A stretch of DNA of 64,000 bases from Rubripirellula obstinata (GTDB taxonomy: Bacteria; Planctomycetota; Planctomycetia; Pirellulales; Pirellulaceae). The notes below the pieces were generated by a model. It saw only the letters and a program-made list of their open reading frames with translations, did not search any database and was not told where the DNA came from. The stretch spans positions 124,001 through 188,000 of the forward strand of contig NZ_LWSK01000001.1 of the NCBI RefSeq assembly GCF_001642955.1. The letters are read 5' to 3'. Positions 92 to 55,714 of the stretch are shown piece after piece. The stretch's first letter is position 1. Each line of letters opens with the position of its first letter. Made by a program: the position numbers and the translations under genes.

Positions 92-2050
<1,959 letters not shown>

Positions 2051-2225
2051 GCGGGGCTTCAACGTGTTGGAGAAAGAACGAACAAGGGACATCGATTGCC
2101 CACAGTCTAACGAAATACTCCATGTCGTTGGTGCCCTCAAGCAAGACACGTCAACAATGTCGTTCCGACAGTGTTACCAGAGTCGATGTCGAAACGGTGC
2201 TGCGAATGTTCCGCTGTGCGACGGC

Positions 2226-3224
2226 TTACGCGTTTCGATTCTTCTGCGGGCGTCTTGGTTTGCCGCCGGCGATGAATTTTTGCATGGGTGCGGGTAGCGG
2301 GGAGTGGAACGTTAGGTCTTCGCCGGTAACGGGATGGGTGAAACCGAGTGTCTTTGCGTGCAGGGCGATTCGTTTGCGGACCCAACGCGGGTGAGTTGCT
2401 TTTTCGGTTTCGTATCGTGGGTCGCCTAAAACAGGATGCCCGTTGCTGGCGAAGTGGACTCGGATTTGATTTCGTTTGCCGGTTTCCAAAACCGCTTCGA
2501 CCAGCGTGGTGTCGTCGAATCGTTTATCGACCTTGAAATGCGTGATCGCTTCTTCGGTATCTTTCGATGGCGGTGCCTCGAATCGATCCAGGTTTTTGCC
2601 GGTCTTTAAGTGCGATGTGAACGTGCCTTCATCTTTTTCGACCAAACCGGCCACGATCGCAGCGTAGACTCGACGCGGTTTCTTGGCCTTGAATTGTTCG
2701 ATCAACAGCTCACCCACGGCATCATGTTTGCCGAAAACCAGCAACCCGCTGACGCTTCGATCTAATCGATGCACCAGAGCGGCTTCGCGATTACGTCGCG
2801 AATGGCTGATGTAGACCGACACTCGCTGCCACAGCGTATTGGTTTCCTCGCCTTGATCGGTTGGCACCGTCAGCGTCCCGGCGGCTTTGTCGACAACGAT
2901 CAAATCGTCATCCTCGAAGATCACTGAAAAGGTGCGATCATCCCAGCGAGGTTTCTTTTTTTCGCGATAGCGTTGATCCGGGTTGTATCGCAGCGAAACG
3001 ACGTTGCCTTCGGTGACTGGTGTCCCGGCGTCAAGGCAGGTGACGCCATCGATCGACACGCAGTCGTAATCGAACATGCCTTTGACTTGGCTGTGCGAGG
3101 ATCCGCTCAACTGGCGAACGACGGCATCAACGCGACCAGCGGTGGTGGCGTCAACGGTGGCGGAGAGGTTTTTCATCGGTGATTCCGTCTGAGTTTTCTT
3201 CGGTGTTTTCATCTGAGTTTTCAT
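2226..3224 (-). CDS. RluA-family RNA pseudouridine synthase
   Basis: Isomerises uridine to pseudouridine in rRNA or tRNA. The N-terminal part (about residues 25-85) reads like an S4 RNA-binding domain, and the catalytic domain carries the family signature HRLDRSVSGLLVF at about residues 152-164, with the catalytic aspartate in HRLD. A second conserved stretch, GKRNQIRVHFASNGHPVLGD, lies near residue 255. Several in-frame ATGs lie at the 5' end (3224, 3212, 3176); the longest is given, but the start at 3176 (MKNLSATV) is just as likely because the first 16 residues are Lys/Thr-rich and unconserved. The C-terminus ends in basic residues. The exact target uridine cannot be told from sequence; it belongs to the RluC/RluD-like branch rather than TruC with certainty only at family level. 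Confidence 0.92.
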   Translation of the reverse strand: MKTQMKTPKKTQTESPMKNLSATVDATTAGRVDAVVRQLSGSSHSQVKGMFDYDCVSIDGVTCLDAGTPVTEGNVVSLRYNPDQRYREKKKPRWDDRTFSVIFEDDDLIVVDKAAGTLTVPTDQGEETNTLWQRVSVYISHSRRNREAALVHRLDRSVSGLLVFGKHDAVGELLIEQFKAKKPRRVYAAIVAGLVEKDEGTFTSHLKTGKNLDRFEAPPSKDTEEAITHFKVDKRFDDTTLVEAVLETGKRNQIRVHFASNGHPVLGDPRYETEKATHPRWVRKRIALHAKTLGFTHPVTGEDLTFHSPLPAPMQKFIAGGKPRRPQKNRNA

Positions 3225-15571: not shown

Positions 15572-16106
15572 TAGTGGATCTTGTTAAGACGCGCCCGACA
15601 AAAGTCCGAACAGGCAAAATATGGTTTCCTTCAAAAACCGGCGCGTTCGTTTTGAAGTTGTATTTTTCGAGAGTGCCGGAGGCACGATAGCACCTAGCCT
15701 GGGGCGTCAGCCTACGCCGTGAAGAGTTTTGGTCTCGGAAAACACGTGTTAGTTCGTTTAGCCGCGTGGGCATCGCCCCGCGCGTTTCGCCCCGCATGGA
15801 CGCGCGGGGCGATGCCCACGCGGTTAAACAGTCCAGAAACCCTTCACGGTGTCGCCCCTCCGGGGCTTTGCAGAAATGCGGTACTCGATTTCCTGGGGCT
15901 GACGCCCCAGGCTAAGTGCTGCCGCCACTTCGTGGCTAAAAAAACGCAACTTCGAAACGCGTAAGATGTAACGATGATTTGCAAGGGCGTCGAGCGTGAT
16001 GACGCAAGGGACGGATGAGAGTCCCTCGCTCACGCTTCGGGTTACTTTTGTCGGGCGCGTCTGTTAAAGATCCTCCCGCGGCAAGGATCTTTAACAAGAT
16101 CCACTA
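15572..16106. repeat. Concentric nested palindrome (535 bp)
   Basis: Four inverted pairs are arranged one inside the other. Outermost: tagtggatcttgttaagac then gcgcccgacaaaagt at 15572-15605 against acttttgtcgggcgcgtct (16044-16062) and ttaacaagatccacta (16091-16106). Next: gcgcgttcgttttgaagttg (from 15641) against caacttcgaaacgcg (to 15961). Next: tagcctggggcgtcagcc (15695-15712) against ggctgacgccccaggcta (15897-15914). Core: gtttagccgcgtgggcatcg against cgatgcccacgcggttaaac, the GTTTAACCGCG element (15714-15852). The right outer arm carries an extra 28-nt hairpin (gttaaagatcct ... aggatct, 16063-16090). No coding sequence or transposase is inside. Confidence 0.88.
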
Positions 16107-27577: not shown

Positions 27578-27680
27578 AAGCTATTAGCTGTTAGCTGTTA
27601 GCTGTTAGCTGTTAGCTAAAAACGCCTGCTGAATTCAATTCGCTAATCGCTAATCGCTAACAGCTAATCGCTAATCCCTA
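27578..27680. repeat. GCTAATCGCTAACAGC hairpin element, copy 1
   Basis: Left half is five tandem copies of ttagctg (27582-27619), right half cgctaatcgctaatcgctaa with cagctaatcgctaat. The two halves pair (agctgttagc against gctaacagct). A related hairpin is at 52977-53070 inside the export-type operon. It overlaps the stop codon of the DUF4272 gene. The rest of 27382-27677 holds no gene. Confidence 0.75.
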
Positions 27681-28700
27681 ACTCGGCGTATCAACGTCGT
27701 CCCAGTCGGCTCCGGCGAAGCAGATCAGCCAATTTAGTGCATGCTGTCGTTCCACCAGCACGCCGCCGTCCAGCCCGGCCGGTGTTTCACGGCCCTGTGT
27801 TTTGGCTTGGCGGGCAGCCCATAGCATTTGATAATTTAGGTCCAATGCGTCCAATAATTCATCGACCGGACGCAATCGCGTTTCGGTGACCAGTTCACGA
27901 TCAGACCGGTCGACCATTGTTTCAGCCACCGCGGGAACGTCGCAAATCTCGGTTGGCGATTTGAGTTCAGCGTGCAAACCCAGCGCCCATTGCAACGCAT
28001 ACAAAGCTTCATACCGCCAAGCAAAATTGACAACGGTCTGTTGATCCGGCCCGTCGTTTTCAAGAAACGCCTGCTCGCTTGGCGTCAAAGCCTCAAACGA
28101 CATTGGTGATTTCGACCGCAGTTGTTCCGAAGCGATCGGGTTTCCGCTGGCCAACGATTCGGCTCGCACGGCGACAATGAACAGAGCAAGCGTCCGCCAG
28201 CCAACCTCATCGGCGGACCGCAGAATCACTTCGTCTTCACCAATGCTTGGTGGCAGATCCTCCATCACATCGATTCCTCGATCCGCCAACAACTTTCGAT
28301 TAGCGATCGATCGCTCGACTGCATCGATCGGGTGCGGGACGCGTGCCTCTTCGTCCACGGAATCATTTTCCCGATCGACCAAAACGGCTCCCTTGGGATC
28401 CCGCAGCGATCGATCTGGCATTCCAAAGATCGAATTGGTTTTGATTCCCCAGGCGGTCATCGCATCCAGGTCGTCTCGCATGACGTCAAACTGGTACCAA
28501 TTGCGAGTGCGTTCCAAGTGCTGCAAGACGGCAAACAAGGTCTGAGTCATCTCCAGCTTGCCAAAGTCGCACGCCCAACCCATGACCGAGTTGAGGTGAC
28601 CAACCAGATCAGAGTTCTGACGTGATTTCGTTTCAAGAATTTCACAAGGAAAGTCAGGCTGGGAATCCTGACGAAGGGTGCTGTAGGCGGTAACAATCAT
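27678..28700 (-). CDS. DUF4272 domain protein
   Basis: A 340-residue cytosolic protein of the DUF4272 family (function unknown). The C-terminal part has the characteristic WRYEALYALQWALGLHAELK with the following SPTEICDV, and VLVERQHALNWLICFAGADW with DDVDTPS at the end. I prefer the ATG at 28700 (MIVTAYSTLR); a second ATG at 28763 would add 21 residues, and no Shine-Dalgarno sequence separates them. The N-terminal 170 residues are a less conserved alpha/beta domain. It lies upstream of a hairpin element and converges with nothing close; it is divergent from the zinc-ribbon gene at 28834. Confidence 0.85.
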   Translation of the reverse strand: MIVTAYSTLRQDSQPDFPCEILETKSRQNSDLVGHLNSVMGWACDFGKLEMTQTLFAVLQHLERTRNWYQFDVMRDDLDAMTAWGIKTNSIFGMPDRSLRDPKGAVLVDRENDSVDEEARVPHPIDAVERSIANRKLLADRGIDVMEDLPPSIGEDEVILRSADEVGWRTLALFIVAVRAESLASGNPIASEQLRSKSPMSFEALTPSEQAFLENDGPDQQTVVNFAWRYEALYALQWALGLHAELKSPTEICDVPAVAETMVDRSDRELVTETRLRPVDELLDALDLNYQMLWAARQAKTQGRETPAGLDGGVLVERQHALNWLICFAGADWDDVDTPS

Positions 28701-31287: not shown

Positions 31288-31696
31288 ATCTTTGCTATTT
31301 CATCGGAGTGATTGCCGGCGGATATTGAGATCATCGTTTCCTCCGAGCGTGGAAGCTGGGAAGTTGACGTGACTGGCCTACGAAGACACTCGCTAACCCG
31401 CACACTTTCACTTTTGTCAGTTTCACGCCATCCTATCGGGCAAACGATCATGCCCGTAGCTGATCCCGCCAGGGTTCAGTCTTCGCTGAGTACCGAGTAC
31501 CGAGTACCGAGTACCGAGTACCGAGTACCGAGTACTGAGTACTGAGTACTGAGTACTGAGTACTGAGTACTGAGTACTGAGTACTGAGTACTGAGTACTG
31601 AGTACTGAGTACTGATACCCTGGCGGGATCAGCTACTGAGGCGGGGTTGGTTACGGAAGATTTGTCCCTTAGCAACGCCCATTCAAGGCTTTATTG
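31288..31696. other. Divergent intergenic region dominated by an expanded repeat
   Basis: Holds the inverted-repeat copy 31456-31636 with the 7-nt microsatellite inside. Nothing else is seen apart from the putative promoter region of the aldo/keto reductase gene (no clear -35/-10). Confidence 0.55.
31456..31636. repeat. GATCCCGCCAGGGTTCAG inverted repeat, copy 3, with microsatellite loop
   Basis: Left arm gtagctgatcccgccagggt at 31456-31475 and tcag; right arm ccctggcgggatcagctac at 31618-31636. The loop (31488-31613) is eighteen 7-nt units: six gagtacc followed by twelve gagtact. The loop is therefore 126 nt, against 10-25 nt in other intact copies. Unit change from c to t at position 7 marks one boundary. 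Confidence 0.93.
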
Positions 31697-49202: not shown

Positions 49203-51266
49203 ATGTCGGTCAACCAGCAAACGGTCGAGGAAACCAAGGCACAGATTCGTGGATTGGTCAACGAGATCGCTGCCTTGGCAAAGAGCGGCGCGACCGCCGA
49301 AGAGTTCTATTCTGAATTGCTCTCGCGAGTGATCACGGCTCTGGCCGCACCCGGCGGCGCGGTTTGGTTGCTCGACGATGATCAGCATCTAAAGCTGCAG
49401 TATCAGATCAATGCTGAACCATCGATCTTGGCCGAGGACACCGAAGATGCTCTGCGTCACAAACGTCTGCTGCAACGTGTCGCCCACAGCGGCCAATCGT
49501 TGCTGGTGCCACCGTACTCCGGCACAACCGATGGTGATGCCGAAGGCAACCCGACTCGTTACTTGTTGGTTCTCGGTGCGTTGAAGCATGAAGGCCAGAA
49601 CGACGGTTTGATTGAGATTTTCCAGCGTCCGGACACCGCGCCTGACACGCAAAAAGGCTACCTGCGGTTCCTGCAACAAATGTGTGAGTTGGCGACCGAG
49701 TGGTTGCGGACTCAAAAGCTTCAAAAGCTAGGTGATCGCCAAACGCTATGGCAGCAAGCCGATTCGTTCGCTCGCGCGACTCATGAATCGCTCGACCTAA
49801 AAGAGACCTGTTACATCGTCGCCAACGAAGGCCGACGAATGATTGGTTGTGACCGAGTCAGCGTGGCGATCAAGAAGGGCGGTAAGTGTACGGTCCAGGC
49901 GATCAGCGGCCAGGACACGATCGAAAATCGATCGAACATTGTGACGGCTCTAAATAACTTGGCGACTCGAGTGGTCGCGGCCGGTGAACCGCTTTGGCAC
50001 GATGGATCGACCGAAGATCTGCCGCCGCAAATCGAAGAGGCGCTTGAAGACTACGTGGACGAATCCTACGGTCGGCAAATCGCGGTGCTGCCACTTCGTG
50101 AACCTGAGCGACGCCTTGGTCAGGACGAAGAAGCGGGTGCCGCGGGAACGATCGATCGCGACAACGCTCACCGAGGCGAAGTGATTGGGGCGCTGATCGT
50201 CGAGCAGATCGAAAGCGACATTCCTGCCGAAATCTATCGCTCTCGCGTCGATCTGGTTTACGAACACGGTACACGAGCGATCGCGAACTCGCGGGCTCAC
50301 AGCAATCTATTCTTGATGCCGCTCTGGCGTGCTTTGGGACGTGCGACTTGGGTGCTGCGTGCTCGGACACTGCCCAAGACACTGGCGGTGCTCGGCTTGA
50401 TCGCTGCCATTATCTTGGGGCTGACGTTCATTCCCAAAGACTTCAACCTGGAAGCCGAAGGCACGTTGATCCCCGAGGCTCGCCGCGAGGTCTTTGCACC
50501 GATTGACGGTGAAGTGATCGAGGTCTCGGTCGACCACAATGACGTCGTCAAAGCAGGCGACGTTTTGATCCGGCTTAGAAATCCGGACATGGAACAACAG
50601 ATGGTTGAAGTCGAAGGCCAAATTCTGACGACGCTGGCCGAACAGTCGCGAGTGAAGGGGCAACTCAGTTATGGCGAAGACTTAAAGCGGGCCGACGTTC
50701 AAGCATTGAAGTCAGAACAAAACGAGCTTGAGATTAAGTACAAGGTGCTGCTTCAGAAAAAAGCGTTGCACGAAAAACGTGCCGAGGATTTGAACATTCG
50801 CTCACCGATCGATGGTGTCGTCGTTTCTTGGGACGTCGAAAAGATGCTGCGAAGTCGTCCGATTATGACCGGCCAGGTTTTGTTGGAGGTCGCCGATTTG
50901 AATCAGCCGTTGCGATTGGAATTGGATCTGCCCGAAAAACGTGAAGGTCACTTGGACGAGTTTGTCCGAACCAACAATCTGACTGAGCCCGATTCGGTGA
51001 TCGACGTCTCGTACATTTTGGCGACCGACCCCGATCAACCTCTTGATGCGGTCCTGCCGGTCCGAACAATCGCGACACGTGCGGAAGCCAACGAAGAACA
51101 TGGCGCGATCATCAAGATGAAGGCGCTTCCTGAACAAGAACCGTTGCGTCGTTTGAACCCGCGTCCAGGCGCGAAGGTGATTGCAAAGGTGAAGTGTGGT
51201 CGAGCATCGAGCGGGTTCGTGTTCTTCCACGAAATTTATGAATGGTGTTGCAAGTTTTTCTTCTAG
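49203..51266 (+). CDS. GAF-sensor fused to HlyD-type membrane fusion protein
   Basis: A 687-residue protein that joins a cytosolic sensor to a periplasmic adaptor. Residues about 30-170 and 190-385 read as two GAF-like domains (GGAVWLLDDDQHLKLQYQIN; CYIVANEGRRMIGCDRVSVA, with GEVIGALIVEQIES at the end). One transmembrane helix TLAVLGLIAAIILGLTFIP is at about 391-410. The periplasmic part has the split lipoyl/barrel-sandwich halves (RREVFAPIDGEVIEVSVDHN, near 425-470, and NIRSPIDGVVVSWDVEKML, near 538-560) around a coiled coil, then a beta-barrel segment. No ABC, RND or outer-membrane partner lies beside it. It leads a three-gene cluster; the next gene starts 816 bp further, after a hairpin array. 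Confidence 0.9.
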   Translation: MSVNQQTVEETKAQIRGLVNEIAALAKSGATAEEFYSELLSRVITALAAPGGAVWLLDDDQHLKLQYQINAEPSILAEDTEDALRHKRLLQRVAHSGQSLLVPPYSGTTDGDAEGNPTRYLLVLGALKHEGQNDGLIEIFQRPDTAPDTQKGYLRFLQQMCELATEWLRTQKLQKLGDRQTLWQQADSFARATHESLDLKETCYIVANEGRRMIGCDRVSVAIKKGGKCTVQAISGQDTIENRSNIVTALNNLATRVVAAGEPLWHDGSTEDLPPQIEEALEDYVDESYGRQIAVLPLREPERRLGQDEEAGAAGTIDRDNAHRGEVIGALIVEQIESDIPAEIYRSRVDLVYEHGTRAIANSRAHSNLFLMPLWRALGRATWVLRARTLPKTLAVLGLIAAIILGLTFIPKDFNLEAEGTLIPEARREVFAPIDGEVIEVSVDHNDVVKAGDVLIRLRNPDMEQQMVEVEGQILTTLAEQSRVKGQLSYGEDLKRADVQALKSEQNELEIKYKVLLQKKALHEKRAEDLNIRSPIDGVVVSWDVEKMLRSRPIMTGQVLLEVADLNQPLRLELDLPEKREGHLDEFVRTNNLTEPDSVIDVSYILATDPDQPLDAVLPVRTIATRAEANEEHGAIIKMKALPEQEPLRRLNPRPGAKVIAKVKCGRASSGFVFFHEIYEWCCKFFF

Positions 51267-51276
51267 TTTCCTCAAC

Positions 51277-52062
51277 GTAGGCCGTAGCGAGCCCCAGCGA
51301 GTTACGGCGTCCCGATTCCCGAACACACACTTGCCGAAACTCGCTACGGCCTACTTGTCATCCTTGACGTAGGCCGTAGCGAGCCCCAGCGAGTTACGGC
51401 GTCCCGACTCCCGAACACACACTTGCCGTAACTCGCTAAGGCTCGCTACGGCCTACTTGTCTTCATTGACGTAGGCCGTAGCGAGCCCCAGCGAGTTACG
51501 GCATCCCGATTCCCGAATACACACTTGCCGTAACTCGCTAAGGCTCGCTACGGCCTACTTGTCTTTGTTGACGTAGGCCGTAGCGAGCCCCAGCGAGTTA
51601 CGGCATCCCGATTCCCGAATACACACTTGCCGTAACTCGCTGAGGCTCGCTACGGCCTACTTGTCTTCGTTGACGTAGGCCGTAGCGAGCCCCAGCGAGT
51701 TACGGCATCCCGATTCCCAAACACACACTTGCCGTAACTCGCTGAGGCTCGCTACGGCCTACTTGTCTCCATTGACGTAGGCCGTAGCGAGCCCCAGCGA
51801 GTTACGGCGTCCAGATTCCCGAATATACACTTGCCGTAACTCGCTGAGGCTCGCTACGGCCTACTTGTCATCCTTGACGTAGGCCGTAGCGAGCCCCAGC
51901 GAGTTACGGCGTCCCGATTCCCGAATACACACTTGCCGTAACTCGCTAAGGCTCGCTACGGCCTACTTGTCTTCATTGACGTAGGCCGTAGCGAGCCCCA
52001 GCGAGTTACGGCGTCCCGACTCCCGAATACACACTTGCCGTAACTCGCTACGGCCTACTTGT
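51277..52062. repeat. Tandem array of eight 102-bp hairpin units
   Basis: Units start at 51277, 51369, 51471, 51573, 51675, 51777, 51879 and 51981. Each full unit has a left arm of 32 nt (gtaggccgtagcgagccc then cagcgagttacggc), a loop of about 24 nt (cccgattcccgaatacac), a right arm (gccgtaactcgctaaggc then tcgctacggcctac) and a 14-nt spacer ending ttgac. Arms pair with a 2-nt mismatch (cc/tt). The first and last units lack aaggctcgct in the right arm. A solo copy, in inverted orientation, lies at 55350-55440. Confidence 0.97.
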
Positions 52063-52082
52063 CCTTCCAAAAAGTTTTTCTC

Positions 52083-52976
52083 ATGCGCCAGACACTTATC
52101 CTAAAAGCGTTTTTACCTGTGGCGATCGCGATTGCCGCGACGACCAGTCTCGTGCATGCCCAGGAACGTGGTGAGCGTGAAATCCGTGCCGTCAATTGCT
52201 CGGTTCGCTACATCAACAAGACTGACATTCCGGCAAAGGCTGACGGAACGCTCACTGAGTTGATGTTTGAAGAAGGCGACACCGTCACCAAGGATCAAGT
52301 GCTGGCGACGATTGATGCAACCGCGGCAAAGCTTGCCGTCGAACTGAAAAAGGCGGAGGAAAAAGAGGCCACACTCAACGCACTCAATGACATCAACCTT
52401 AAAGACTCCATCAACAACGAAAAAGTCGCCAAGGCCGAATACGAGTCTTACAAAGTGCTTCGCAAAGAAGGTGCGATCCCGTATTGGGAAATGGAGAAGA
52501 AGCGTTTGGAAGCAGAACGTCAGGTGCTGCGAATTGAATTGGCCAAGATGGAACAGAAAATTGCTTTGATCAAACGCATTGCGAAGCAAACTGAATTAGA
52601 CATGGCCGAATTTGAATTGACCAAACGCGATGTCACTTCACCGGTCACCGGGTTCATCGAAAAACGAATTGCACAAATTGGCCAATGGGTCCAAGCGGGC
52701 AGTCCCATCGCAACTCTGATTCAAATGGATCGGTTGCGAGTCGAAGGCGACATCGATGCATTGCGTTACCCCGGCGTCGTTGAAAAGGGTGCTGCCGTCG
52801 AAGTCACGGTCTTCCAAGGCGATCGCAGCGTGACCGTTGATGGAACAATTGGTTACGTCAGCATGGAAGTGGACGTCCGAGATTTGAATAACATTTGGGT
52901 CGAGATCGAAAACGAAAAGTTCGGCAACGATTGGAAATTCAAACCCGGCATGAAAGCCGAAATCACGATTAAGTAA
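52083..52976 (+). CDS. HlyD-family periplasmic adaptor
   Basis: A 297-residue membrane fusion protein without sensor domain. The ATG at 52083 gives a Sec signal MRQTLILKAFLPVAIAIAAT then TSLVHAQ, cleaved before the mature part. The barrel-sandwich halves are INKTDIPAKADGTLTELMFE (about residue 43) and the right half DVTSPVTGFIEKRIAQIGQW (about 185), with a long coiled-coil hairpin (KKAEEKEATLNALNDINLKD through QKIALIKRIAKQTELDMAEF) between. Beta barrel follows, ending with FKPGMKAEITIK. It starts 21 bp after the hairpin array. Confidence 0.9.
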   Translation: MRQTLILKAFLPVAIAIAATTSLVHAQERGEREIRAVNCSVRYINKTDIPAKADGTLTELMFEEGDTVTKDQVLATIDATAAKLAVELKKAEEKEATLNALNDINLKDSINNEKVAKAEYESYKVLRKEGAIPYWEMEKKRLEAERQVLRIELAKMEQKIALIKRIAKQTELDMAEFELTKRDVTSPVTGFIEKRIAQIGQWVQAGSPIATLIQMDRLRVEGDIDALRYPGVVEKGAAVEVTVFQGDRSVTVDGTIGYVSMEVDVRDLNNIWVEIENEKFGNDWKFKPGMKAEITIK

Positions 52977-53076: not shown

Positions 53077-55314
53077 ATGTCTACTCTTGCCGAATCCCTT
53101 GTTAGCAGCTCGTCACGTGCGCTGACGGTGCGCAAGCGTCCTGACCTGTCCGCGAACCGGCAACGGTATCAGGGCACGGGTTATTGGGTGGTCAAGGAAC
53201 CGGTGGGATTGCAGTACTTTCGTTTTCATGACGAAGAGTACTTCATTCTGAACATGTTGGATGGCCACGTTTCGCTGCAGCAGATCAAAGAAGGATTTGA
53301 GCGGCGGTTTGCACCTCAGAAGATCACGTTTGGTGATTTGCAGCAATTCATTGGCATGTTGCATCGCAGCGGTTTGGTGATCAGCAATTCGCCTGGCCAG
53401 GGCAAGGCGCTGCGTGAACGTGGACGGAAGAAGAAGAACAAAGAGACGCTGGGCAAGTTTGCCAACGTCTTTGCACTTCGCTATCGCGGTTTCGACCCCG
53501 AGAAAATCCTCAACGCGATCCTGCCTTGGTTCGGTTGGATCTTTACGGTTCCCGCTCTGCTGTGTTTTGGATTACTGCTATTCGCCGCGTCGATGTTGCT
53601 GGCTAGTCAGTACGACACGGTTTACGCCAAATTGCCCACGTTCCAGCAGTTTTTCGCTGCCGATCGTTGGTTGATTCTGGCCGCAACGATGGGCATCGTT
53701 AAAGTTATCCACGAATTCGGTCACGGTCTGAGTTGCAAAAAGTTTGGTGGCGAGTGTCACGAAATCGGCTTCATGTTGTTGGTCTTTACGCCCTGTTTGT
53801 ACTGCAACGTTTCCGATTCGTGGATGTTGCCCAACAAATGGAAACGGGTTTGGATTGGTGCGGCCGGAATCTATGTCGAGATGATTTTGGCGTCGGTTGC
53901 TGCGTTCGTTTGGTACTTCACTGAAAACGGAACGACGATCAATGACCTTTGTTTGAACATGATGTTTTTGAACGTCGTCAGCACCGTGTTGGTCAACGGA
54001 AATCCGTTGCTACGGTTCGATGGCTATTACATCCTGATGGACGCGTTGGAAATTCCCAACCTTCGTCAGAAGAGCACCGAAGTTCTGAAACGATGGTTTC
54101 AAAAAACATGCTTGGGATTGGAATTGCAGGACGATCCGTTCTTGCCGACACGTGGCAAGTTCATGTTCGCGATGTTCACGATCGCCAGTGTGATTTACCG
54201 ATGGGTGGTCGTCTTTTCGATCGTCTGGTTTGTGATCAAGGTGCTCGAACCCTACGGCTTGCAAGCGGTTGGGCGAATGGTTGCTGTGGTTGGTTTCTTT
54301 GGATTGGTGGCTCAACCGGTCAAACAAACGTGGAAGTTTTGTCGTACACCTGGGAGATTGTCGAAAGTGAAACGTAAGCCTCTATTGACCTCGCTAGCGA
54401 TTTTCGCGGCCATCATTGCGGGCGTCTGTTACATCCCGTTGCCCCACCACATCGATTGTGCTTTCGAGGTCAGGCCTAGCGAAGCCGGTTCGGTTTACGC
54501 GGGAGCCCCCGGGCGGATTGAGTGGACGGTTGATCCCAAGGCAATCGTTCGCCAAGGCGATCCAATCGCGGTGCTGAAGAATCCGGATCTGGAAATCCAG
54601 CTCGCTCAACTGCGCGGTGAAGAAACCGTTTCTCAGGTCAAACTGCGGAACTTGTCGTTTCAGGTGCGGGATAACGAAGCCCTGAAATCACAAATTGAAA
54701 CTCAAGAAGAACTGTTGGCGTCGGTTCAGCACCTCAGAGAAAAAACCGAGGAAGAGCTTGACCGTTTGACCGTTCGTGCCAAGCGAGACGGCTATGTGAT
54801 CGAACCACCTTATCGTGAACCTCAAAATGGCCGCGACGGACGATTGCCGGGTTGGACCGGGTCACCGCTAGATCAAAAGAACCGTGGTGCGCTGTTGACT
54901 GCGGATGACGTCATCTGCGAAATCGGTGCTCCCAATGATTACGAAGCGGTGGTCGTGATTGACCAGGGCGACGTTCAGTTGGTTCGTGAAGGTCAAGCAG
55001 TTGATTTGAAGTTTGATTCGTTGCGGATGAAAACGTTCAGCGGAATGATCACCGAAAAGTCCAATGAACCACTCGAAGCGACATCGGTTTCTATGTCCAG
55101 CCAGACCGGCGGTGATTTGCAAACCGAAATTGATCCAACGACCGGAATGGTTAAGCCACGAAGCGTGTCGTATCAGGCAAGGGTGCCACTAAAACTGGAT
55201 GGTGTTTTGGTGCGGCCCGGCTATCGCGGTTCAGCAAAGATTCACGTGGACCCAATGTCCCTGGGAGGAAGACTTTGGCGAGTGATTGCCAAGACCTTTA
55301 ACTTTGAGCTTTAG
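53077..55314 (+). CDS. PqqD-like / M50 site-2-protease / HlyD fusion membrane protein
   Basis: A 745-residue protein that combines three parts. Residues about 20-105 read like a PqqD-type winged domain (RPDLSANRQRYQGTGYWVVK, then LDGHVSLQQIKEGFERRFAP). Residues about 140-440 are an M50 metalloprotease: HEFGH at about 211-215 (IVKVIHEFGHGLSCKKFGG), and the partner N-P-L-L-R-F-D-G-Y-Y motif at about 309-319 (NGNPLLRFDGYYILMDALE), with six or more helices. After a transmembrane helix the C-terminal third has HlyD-type lipoyl halves (GRIEWTVDPKAIVRQGDPIA, about 475-495; RAKRDGYVIEPPYREP, about 569-584) and a beta barrel. PqqD domains bind RiPP leader peptides in other systems; a similar role is inference. 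Confidence 0.9.
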   Translation: MSTLAESLVSSSSRALTVRKRPDLSANRQRYQGTGYWVVKEPVGLQYFRFHDEEYFILNMLDGHVSLQQIKEGFERRFAPQKITFGDLQQFIGMLHRSGLVISNSPGQGKALRERGRKKKNKETLGKFANVFALRYRGFDPEKILNAILPWFGWIFTVPALLCFGLLLFAASMLLASQYDTVYAKLPTFQQFFAADRWLILAATMGIVKVIHEFGHGLSCKKFGGECHEIGFMLLVFTPCLYCNVSDSWMLPNKWKRVWIGAAGIYVEMILASVAAFVWYFTENGTTINDLCLNMMFLNVVSTVLVNGNPLLRFDGYYILMDALEIPNLRQKSTEVLKRWFQKTCLGLELQDDPFLPTRGKFMFAMFTIASVIYRWVVVFSIVWFVIKVLEPYGLQAVGRMVAVVGFFGLVAQPVKQTWKFCRTPGRLSKVKRKPLLTSLAIFAAIIAGVCYIPLPHHIDCAFEVRPSEAGSVYAGAPGRIEWTVDPKAIVRQGDPIAVLKNPDLEIQLAQLRGEETVSQVKLRNLSFQVRDNEALKSQIETQEELLASVQHLREKTEEELDRLTVRAKRDGYVIEPPYREPQNGRDGRLPGWTGSPLDQKNRGALLTADDVICEIGAPNDYEAVVVIDQGDVQLVREGQAVDLKFDSLRMKTFSGMITEKSNEPLEATSVSMSSQTGGDLQTEIDPTTGMVKPRSVSYQARVPLKLDGVLVRPGYRGSAKIHVDPMSLGGRLWRVIAKTFNFEL

Positions 55315-55714
55315 TATTTTACAGCAGCCCAATCATCGGGTCGCAGTTTGTAGGCCGTAGCGAGCCTTAGCGAGTTACGGCATCGAGATTCACCCATGCA
55401 CAATTGCCGTAACTCGCTGGGGCTCGCTACGGCCTACTTGAAAACGATGGCCTTCCGTTTTTACGCAAAGCTCGTGGTTTAACACTGCGAAACGTCAACC
55501 TTACTATTTCAAACCAGAACAGGATCTTCTGAAGTTGCAGCACCGCGTTGGTTCGTTACCATACGGCGACTGCAATTGAGGTGCGAACGGGCGGCACCGC
55601 TGGAAGATCTTTTTTAGCCCCATTCCTTTCATCATCTTCTGCATCGAACTCGTTTCACTGTGACGACGAGCGATTCGGAAATGAACCACCTCGAGATTTT
55701 CGGAGAAACTATCC
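55315..55714. repeat. Intergenic region with a solo copy of the array hairpin
   Basis: 55350-55440 is one hairpin unit of the 51277-52062 array type, inverted in orientation (left arm carries tt, right arm gg, the reverse of array units). 55442-55714 carries no recognised gene; a GGAG lies 9 nt before the DUF3467 start. Confidence 0.85.

Follow-up and report, generated by a model that had tools for sequence, protein, structure and literature searches.

A tandem array of GTAG-headed REP dimers, most likely spread by a RAYT transposase, at a gene junction of Rubripirellula obstinata

Eight near-identical hairpin units occupy the space between two HlyD-type genes in the draft genome of R. obstinata, which raises the question of whether they are a device of these genes or a repeat that settled there. 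The analysed stretch of 64,000 nucleotides (contig NZ_LWSK01000001.1, positions 124,001 to 188,000) is called the window, and positions refer to it unless a contig is named. Gene 1 ends with a stop codon at 51266 and the co-directional gene 2 begins with an ATG at 52083. The 816-bp gap is filled by the array, as an initial sequence-only reading had stated; the array begins 10 nt past the stop and ends 24 nt ahead of the ATG. The features are as follows.

49203..51266, plus strand: gene 1, GAF and HlyD-type protein; stop codon intact and its position conserved
51277..52058, no strand: the array, eight REPIN/BIME-type dimers in tandem, each made of two inverted REPs whose GTAG heads face outwards; the period is 102 bp and the end units measure 92 bp
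51277..51308, plus strand: left arm of unit 1, shown as an example of the REP with its GTAG head and imperfect palindrome (an identical 32-mer was folded)
51333..51354, minus strand: right arm of unit 1, a REP shortened by a 10-nt deletion
52037..52058, minus strand: right arm of unit 8, a REP shortened by the same 10-nt deletion
52083..52976, plus strand: gene 2, HlyD/RND-type periplasmic adaptor, ATG start
53077..55314, plus strand: gene 3, M50-type membrane peptidase with an HlyD domain
55350..55437, no strand: a lone REP dimer of this family, past the end of gene 3 and in direct orientation relative to the array

The units start at 51277, 51369, 51471, 51573, 51675, 51777, 51879 and 51981 and are arranged head to tail, with start-to-start spacings of 92 bp and then six times 102 bp; units 2-7 are 102 bp and units 1 and 8 are 92 bp in length. 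These starts, a TRF score of 1276 and an RNA fold z of -36.7, far beyond chance, bear out the eight units originally counted, with the proviso that the assembly is a draft (307 contigs, 6.58 Mb) and the count may deviate from eight. The arms had been described as 32 nt with two mismatches; this holds for units 2, 3 and 7, but units 4-6 have a single mismatch. The right arms of units 1 and 8 do lack the same 10 nt, as had been noticed. This deletion is flanked by two CTCGCT direct repeats, and folding of the consensus short form showed that GTAG and a 7-bp stem are retained while the inner part is gone. The units are distinguished by private substitutions and contain no unique spacers. No family was matched in an Rfam scan over the array.

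Folded alone, the 32-nt arm leaves GTAG unpaired and forms, directly 3' of it, an 8-bp stem (including one G-T pair), a 2x2 internal loop, a 2-bp stem and a 4-nt loop; its folding energy was reached by 2 of 200 shuffles. A REP has been defined by a basal stem of 7-20 bp, an optional bulge of 1-3 nt and an upper stem (PMC6006769). The GTAG/GTGG tetranucleotide 5' of a hairpin (here GTAG), the stem and the high-copy extragenic occurrence of GTAG-type REPs were all found here, and so was the BIME/REPIN arrangement of two inverted REPs that form one hairpin and often stand in tandem: an inverted arm pair with its GTAGs outside gives an 88-nt hairpin, to which a short flank is added in each 102-bp unit. 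The unit is a classical GTAG-headed REP in an inverted-pair dimer. A transcript had been expected to fold into eight unit hairpins, but this is not the preferred structure; in the fold of lowest energy each right arm is joined to the left arm of the following unit, a register that is slightly better (-516.8 versus -504.4 kcal/mol).

A search for the unit elsewhere in the genome, proposed together with the first description, recovered the 15-nt head GTAGGCCGTAGCGAG in 612 exact copies (299 + 313) across the 6.58-Mb draft, almost always between genes; the reversed head, used as a control in the same genome, gave 0 copies. REP groups were surveyed in six contigs (745 kb), where lone heads, dimers and arrays were all seen, with the window's array as the largest, and where the REP bodies preserve GTAGGCCGTAGCGAG...AGCGAGTTACGGC around a variable centre. 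For the placement count three head hits without a REP body were dropped and genes were called with a simple hexamer model; on this basis 31 of 31 retained groups lay outside predicted genes, at a noncoding fraction of 0.21 (chance about 1e-21). Groups between divergent genes were somewhat depleted (2/29, p 0.014), and no excess was seen between convergent genes in the six contigs (8/29, p 0.41). Several draft contigs stop in or near these REPs (C17:92, C115:15, C20:1, C5, C264); the family is therefore a probable cause of breaks in the assembly, and its copies are likely to be undercounted. A rarer arrangement, single REPs head to tail in tandem, was seen at G000:C35:77233-77508 (L082), where one plus-strand REP is followed by five minus-strand REPs at 53-54-bp spacing.

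The dispersed copies change how the array itself is to be read. Its loops and spacers do vary more than its arms (10/38 against 2/64 variable sites, p = 0.0008), in agreement with the earlier picture of homogenised arms and drifting loops, but the dispersed copies show the same arm conservation genome-wide, which is therefore a property of the REP family rather than of homogenisation inside the array. The solo dimer downstream of gene 3 had been taken for an inverted copy that brackets the trio. Compared with the array it matches at 74-78 of 88 nt in direct and 66-68 of 88 nt in inverted orientation, and its loop matches the array loops at 14-17 of 24 positions in direct and 3-4 in inverted orientation. 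These direct matches rule out an inverted bracket, and bracketing of the trio is nothing special because the repeat is found genome-wide. The end deletions, variable loops and bracketing, which had looked odd, are ordinary for REP clusters or were misdescribed.

A Y1-transposase gene encoding 184 aa was located at G000:C33:10050-10604. It is flanked by at least six dimers of the array's REP family on the left and two on the right, which is the REPtron arrangement of a RAYT between inverted copies of the same REP. The protein matched the NCBIfam model REP_Tyr_transpos NF047646 (E 1.1e-52, 177.8 bits, cut-off 80) and the E. coli TnpA-REP structure 4er8 (E 2.9e-41). In the alignment to 4er8 the H-x-H, the Y and the equivalents of W94/Q95/E100/H101/R104 are all kept, W94, Q95, E100, H101 and R104 being the TnpA-REP residues listed for GTAG recognition (PMC6006769); the HUH motif, catalytic Tyr, WQ and GTAG-recognition residues of a RAYT are thus all present. 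The C33 RAYT is most likely the enzyme that spreads the array's REP family in trans. Adjoining its gene are six tandem units of ~225 bp (positions 1771-3000 of locus L072, G000:C33), each composed of a REP dimer and the 5' end of the neighbouring HAD-hydrolase gene; host coding sequence has been co-amplified with the REPs in this tandem.

A paralogue with 61% identity to the C33 RAYT is present on contig C306, accompanied by arrays of a second GTAG REP, distinct from the first; it lies at positions 980-2240 of locus L078 (G000:C306), flanked by arrays of the family GTAGGCCGGAACAAGC... The stem of this second REP shows a compensatory change, GCCGTA/TACGGC to GCCGGA/TCCGGC. As judged from these loci, the genome carries two predicted RAYT-REP pairs. 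Among 25 further RAYT relatives from other genomes, 15 had a repeated GTAG-headed 14-mer on both flanks, with REP bodies that differ between hosts.

Within the 22 congeneric genomes the REP family is present in R. obstinata only; the other congeners gave mere fragments of 21-24 nt with E near 1e-3. An intact close RAYT was likewise found in this one genome of the 22, G013 and G016 having fragments or broken copies. A count of the head across 199 genomes of the taxonomic family gave 612 copies in R. obstinata and a single copy in each of two other genomes. RAYT presence and REP abundance are thus correlated between genomes, with a single positive genome. The array is absent from the gene 1-gene 2 junction of all 21 of the 21 other congeners, where the spacer to the likely start is ~40-122 nt, and because these relatives have a short spacer free of the array it would have arrived in the R. 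obstinata lineage after the split from its congeners. An exact empty site was sought in the spacer of the relatives, which is too diverged to define one, so that no target-site signature is readable.

Gene order 1-2-3 is preserved in those congeners whose loci cover all three genes. An operon is plausible for the trio because the hairpin array is real, the genes are co-directional and their synteny is conserved in the relatives. Most congeners share a conserved Shine-Dalgarno motif, CGGAG, ahead of gene 2, which is not present at 52051-52083; that the array caused its loss is not supported, since an array-free sister genome (G001) is also without CGGAG.

The array is very probably a tandem cluster of a GTAG-type REP family, most likely spread by a RAYT, that would have arisen by insertion of a dimer and subsequent tandem reiteration. 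A dimer mobilised by the RAYT would have landed in the short spacer between genes 1 and 2 after the split from the congeners, and the dimer together with flanking bases would then have been reiterated through replication slippage or unequal exchange on the palindromes, or alternatively through RAYT processing of another kind. Reiteration of a dimer with its flank is also visible beside the RAYT at C33 and at C1:116460-117256. The 10-nt deletions of the end units may reflect slippage between the CTCGCT repeats.

Three other accounts were weighed against this one. Under the first, selection would maintain the array as an intercistronic RNA device that stabilises the gene 1 transcript and lowers genes 2-3; this view draws on its very stable fold within a syntenic, co-directional trio and on malE-malF of E. 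coli, where intercistronic REP hairpins shield the upstream mRNA from 3' decay (PMC5927463). It is nevertheless unlikely: the 21 congeners that have this junction all lack the array, the same repeats recur at ~30 further intergenic sites, unrelated to this one, over 745 kb, convergent ones included, and the site is distinguished by copy number alone. The array as an operon-specific RNA element is accordingly not supported. A block of transcription terminators or attenuators is improbable. It has the hairpins in its favour, together with a link between BIMEs and transcription attenuation in E. coli that is given by a title cited in PMC8266576, but terminator-like sites in the region number 8 against 7.5 in shuffles, the hairpins in the array are followed by tails such as ACTTGTC... 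instead of T runs, and REP groups are not enriched between convergent genes, as given above. An intrinsic terminator, that is a hairpin with a T run, was rejected on this evidence. The regular period and the draft state of the assembly could also suggest an array of CRISPR-like or satellite type that has nothing to do with mobile repeats, or else an artefact of assembly; the absence of unique spacers, the distinct private substitutions of the units and the dispersal of the same family over the genome with a cognate RAYT make this very improbable indeed.

The REP cluster is mainly a by-product of a selfish repeat. By analogy with the E. coli case its stable hairpins might secondarily stop exonucleases that degrade 3'-to-5' and so make gene 1 mRNA partly independent of genes 2-3, a tentative proposal to which we give somewhat less than an even chance. 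It is improbable that strains of the species differ in array copy number in a way that tunes gene 1 relative to genes 2-3; if they did, a conserved operon of secretion type would contain an expanding mobile repeat that works as an adjustable RNA rheostat.

The array fits published descriptions of REPs, REPINs and BIMEs and is a clear new example of a well-known type of bacterial repeat. GTAG REP families occur in many phyla, and Rhodopirellula baltica has several of them with many tyrosine transposase genes accompanied by flanking repeats (Di Nocera et al. 2013, PMC3733652). Shared with the GTAG families of that survey are the unpaired GTAG head and stem-loop, HH dimers with GTAG outside, dimer clusters in which the adjoining DNA is repeated in tandem too, and coexisting families and transposase genes with flanking repeats; the R. 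baltica families are likened by their published description, and the array's family appears to be confined to one species. In Pseudomonas fluorescens SBW25 tandem REPIN clusters are known, one beside each RAYT (Bertels and Rainey 2011, PMC3116915). They have in common with the present system the inverted REP pair that gives one hairpin, the tandem clusters of near-identical copies with their flanks and the cluster beside the RAYT, but belong to another phylum, and the largest ordered cluster contains four REPINs, compared with eight dimers in the R. obstinata array. BIMEs are inverted REP pairs, often in consecutive tandem copies (PMC8266576); those of E. coli share the GTAG, the imperfect palindrome with an internal mismatch bulge and the tandem inverted pairs, and TnpA-REP (4er8) is a homologous transposase with the same recognition residues. 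The REP body sequence differs.

The RAYTs, REPs, array-free congener junction and paralogous pair in one genome make up a well-supported planctomycete REP/RAYT system, which is of use in tests of RAYT-REP specificity beyond the Proteobacteria. When a hairpin array is noticed within an operon, the first step should be to look for dispersed copies and for a transposase that belongs to them. Elsewhere in the window a match to the Acido-Lenti-1 RNA (RF01687) lies on the plus strand at 15892-15937 (54.4 bits, gathering 37), and heptamer tandem repeats, among them CTGAGTA x18.6 at 98%, were found at 31486-31615, 27579-27617 and 27640-27681.
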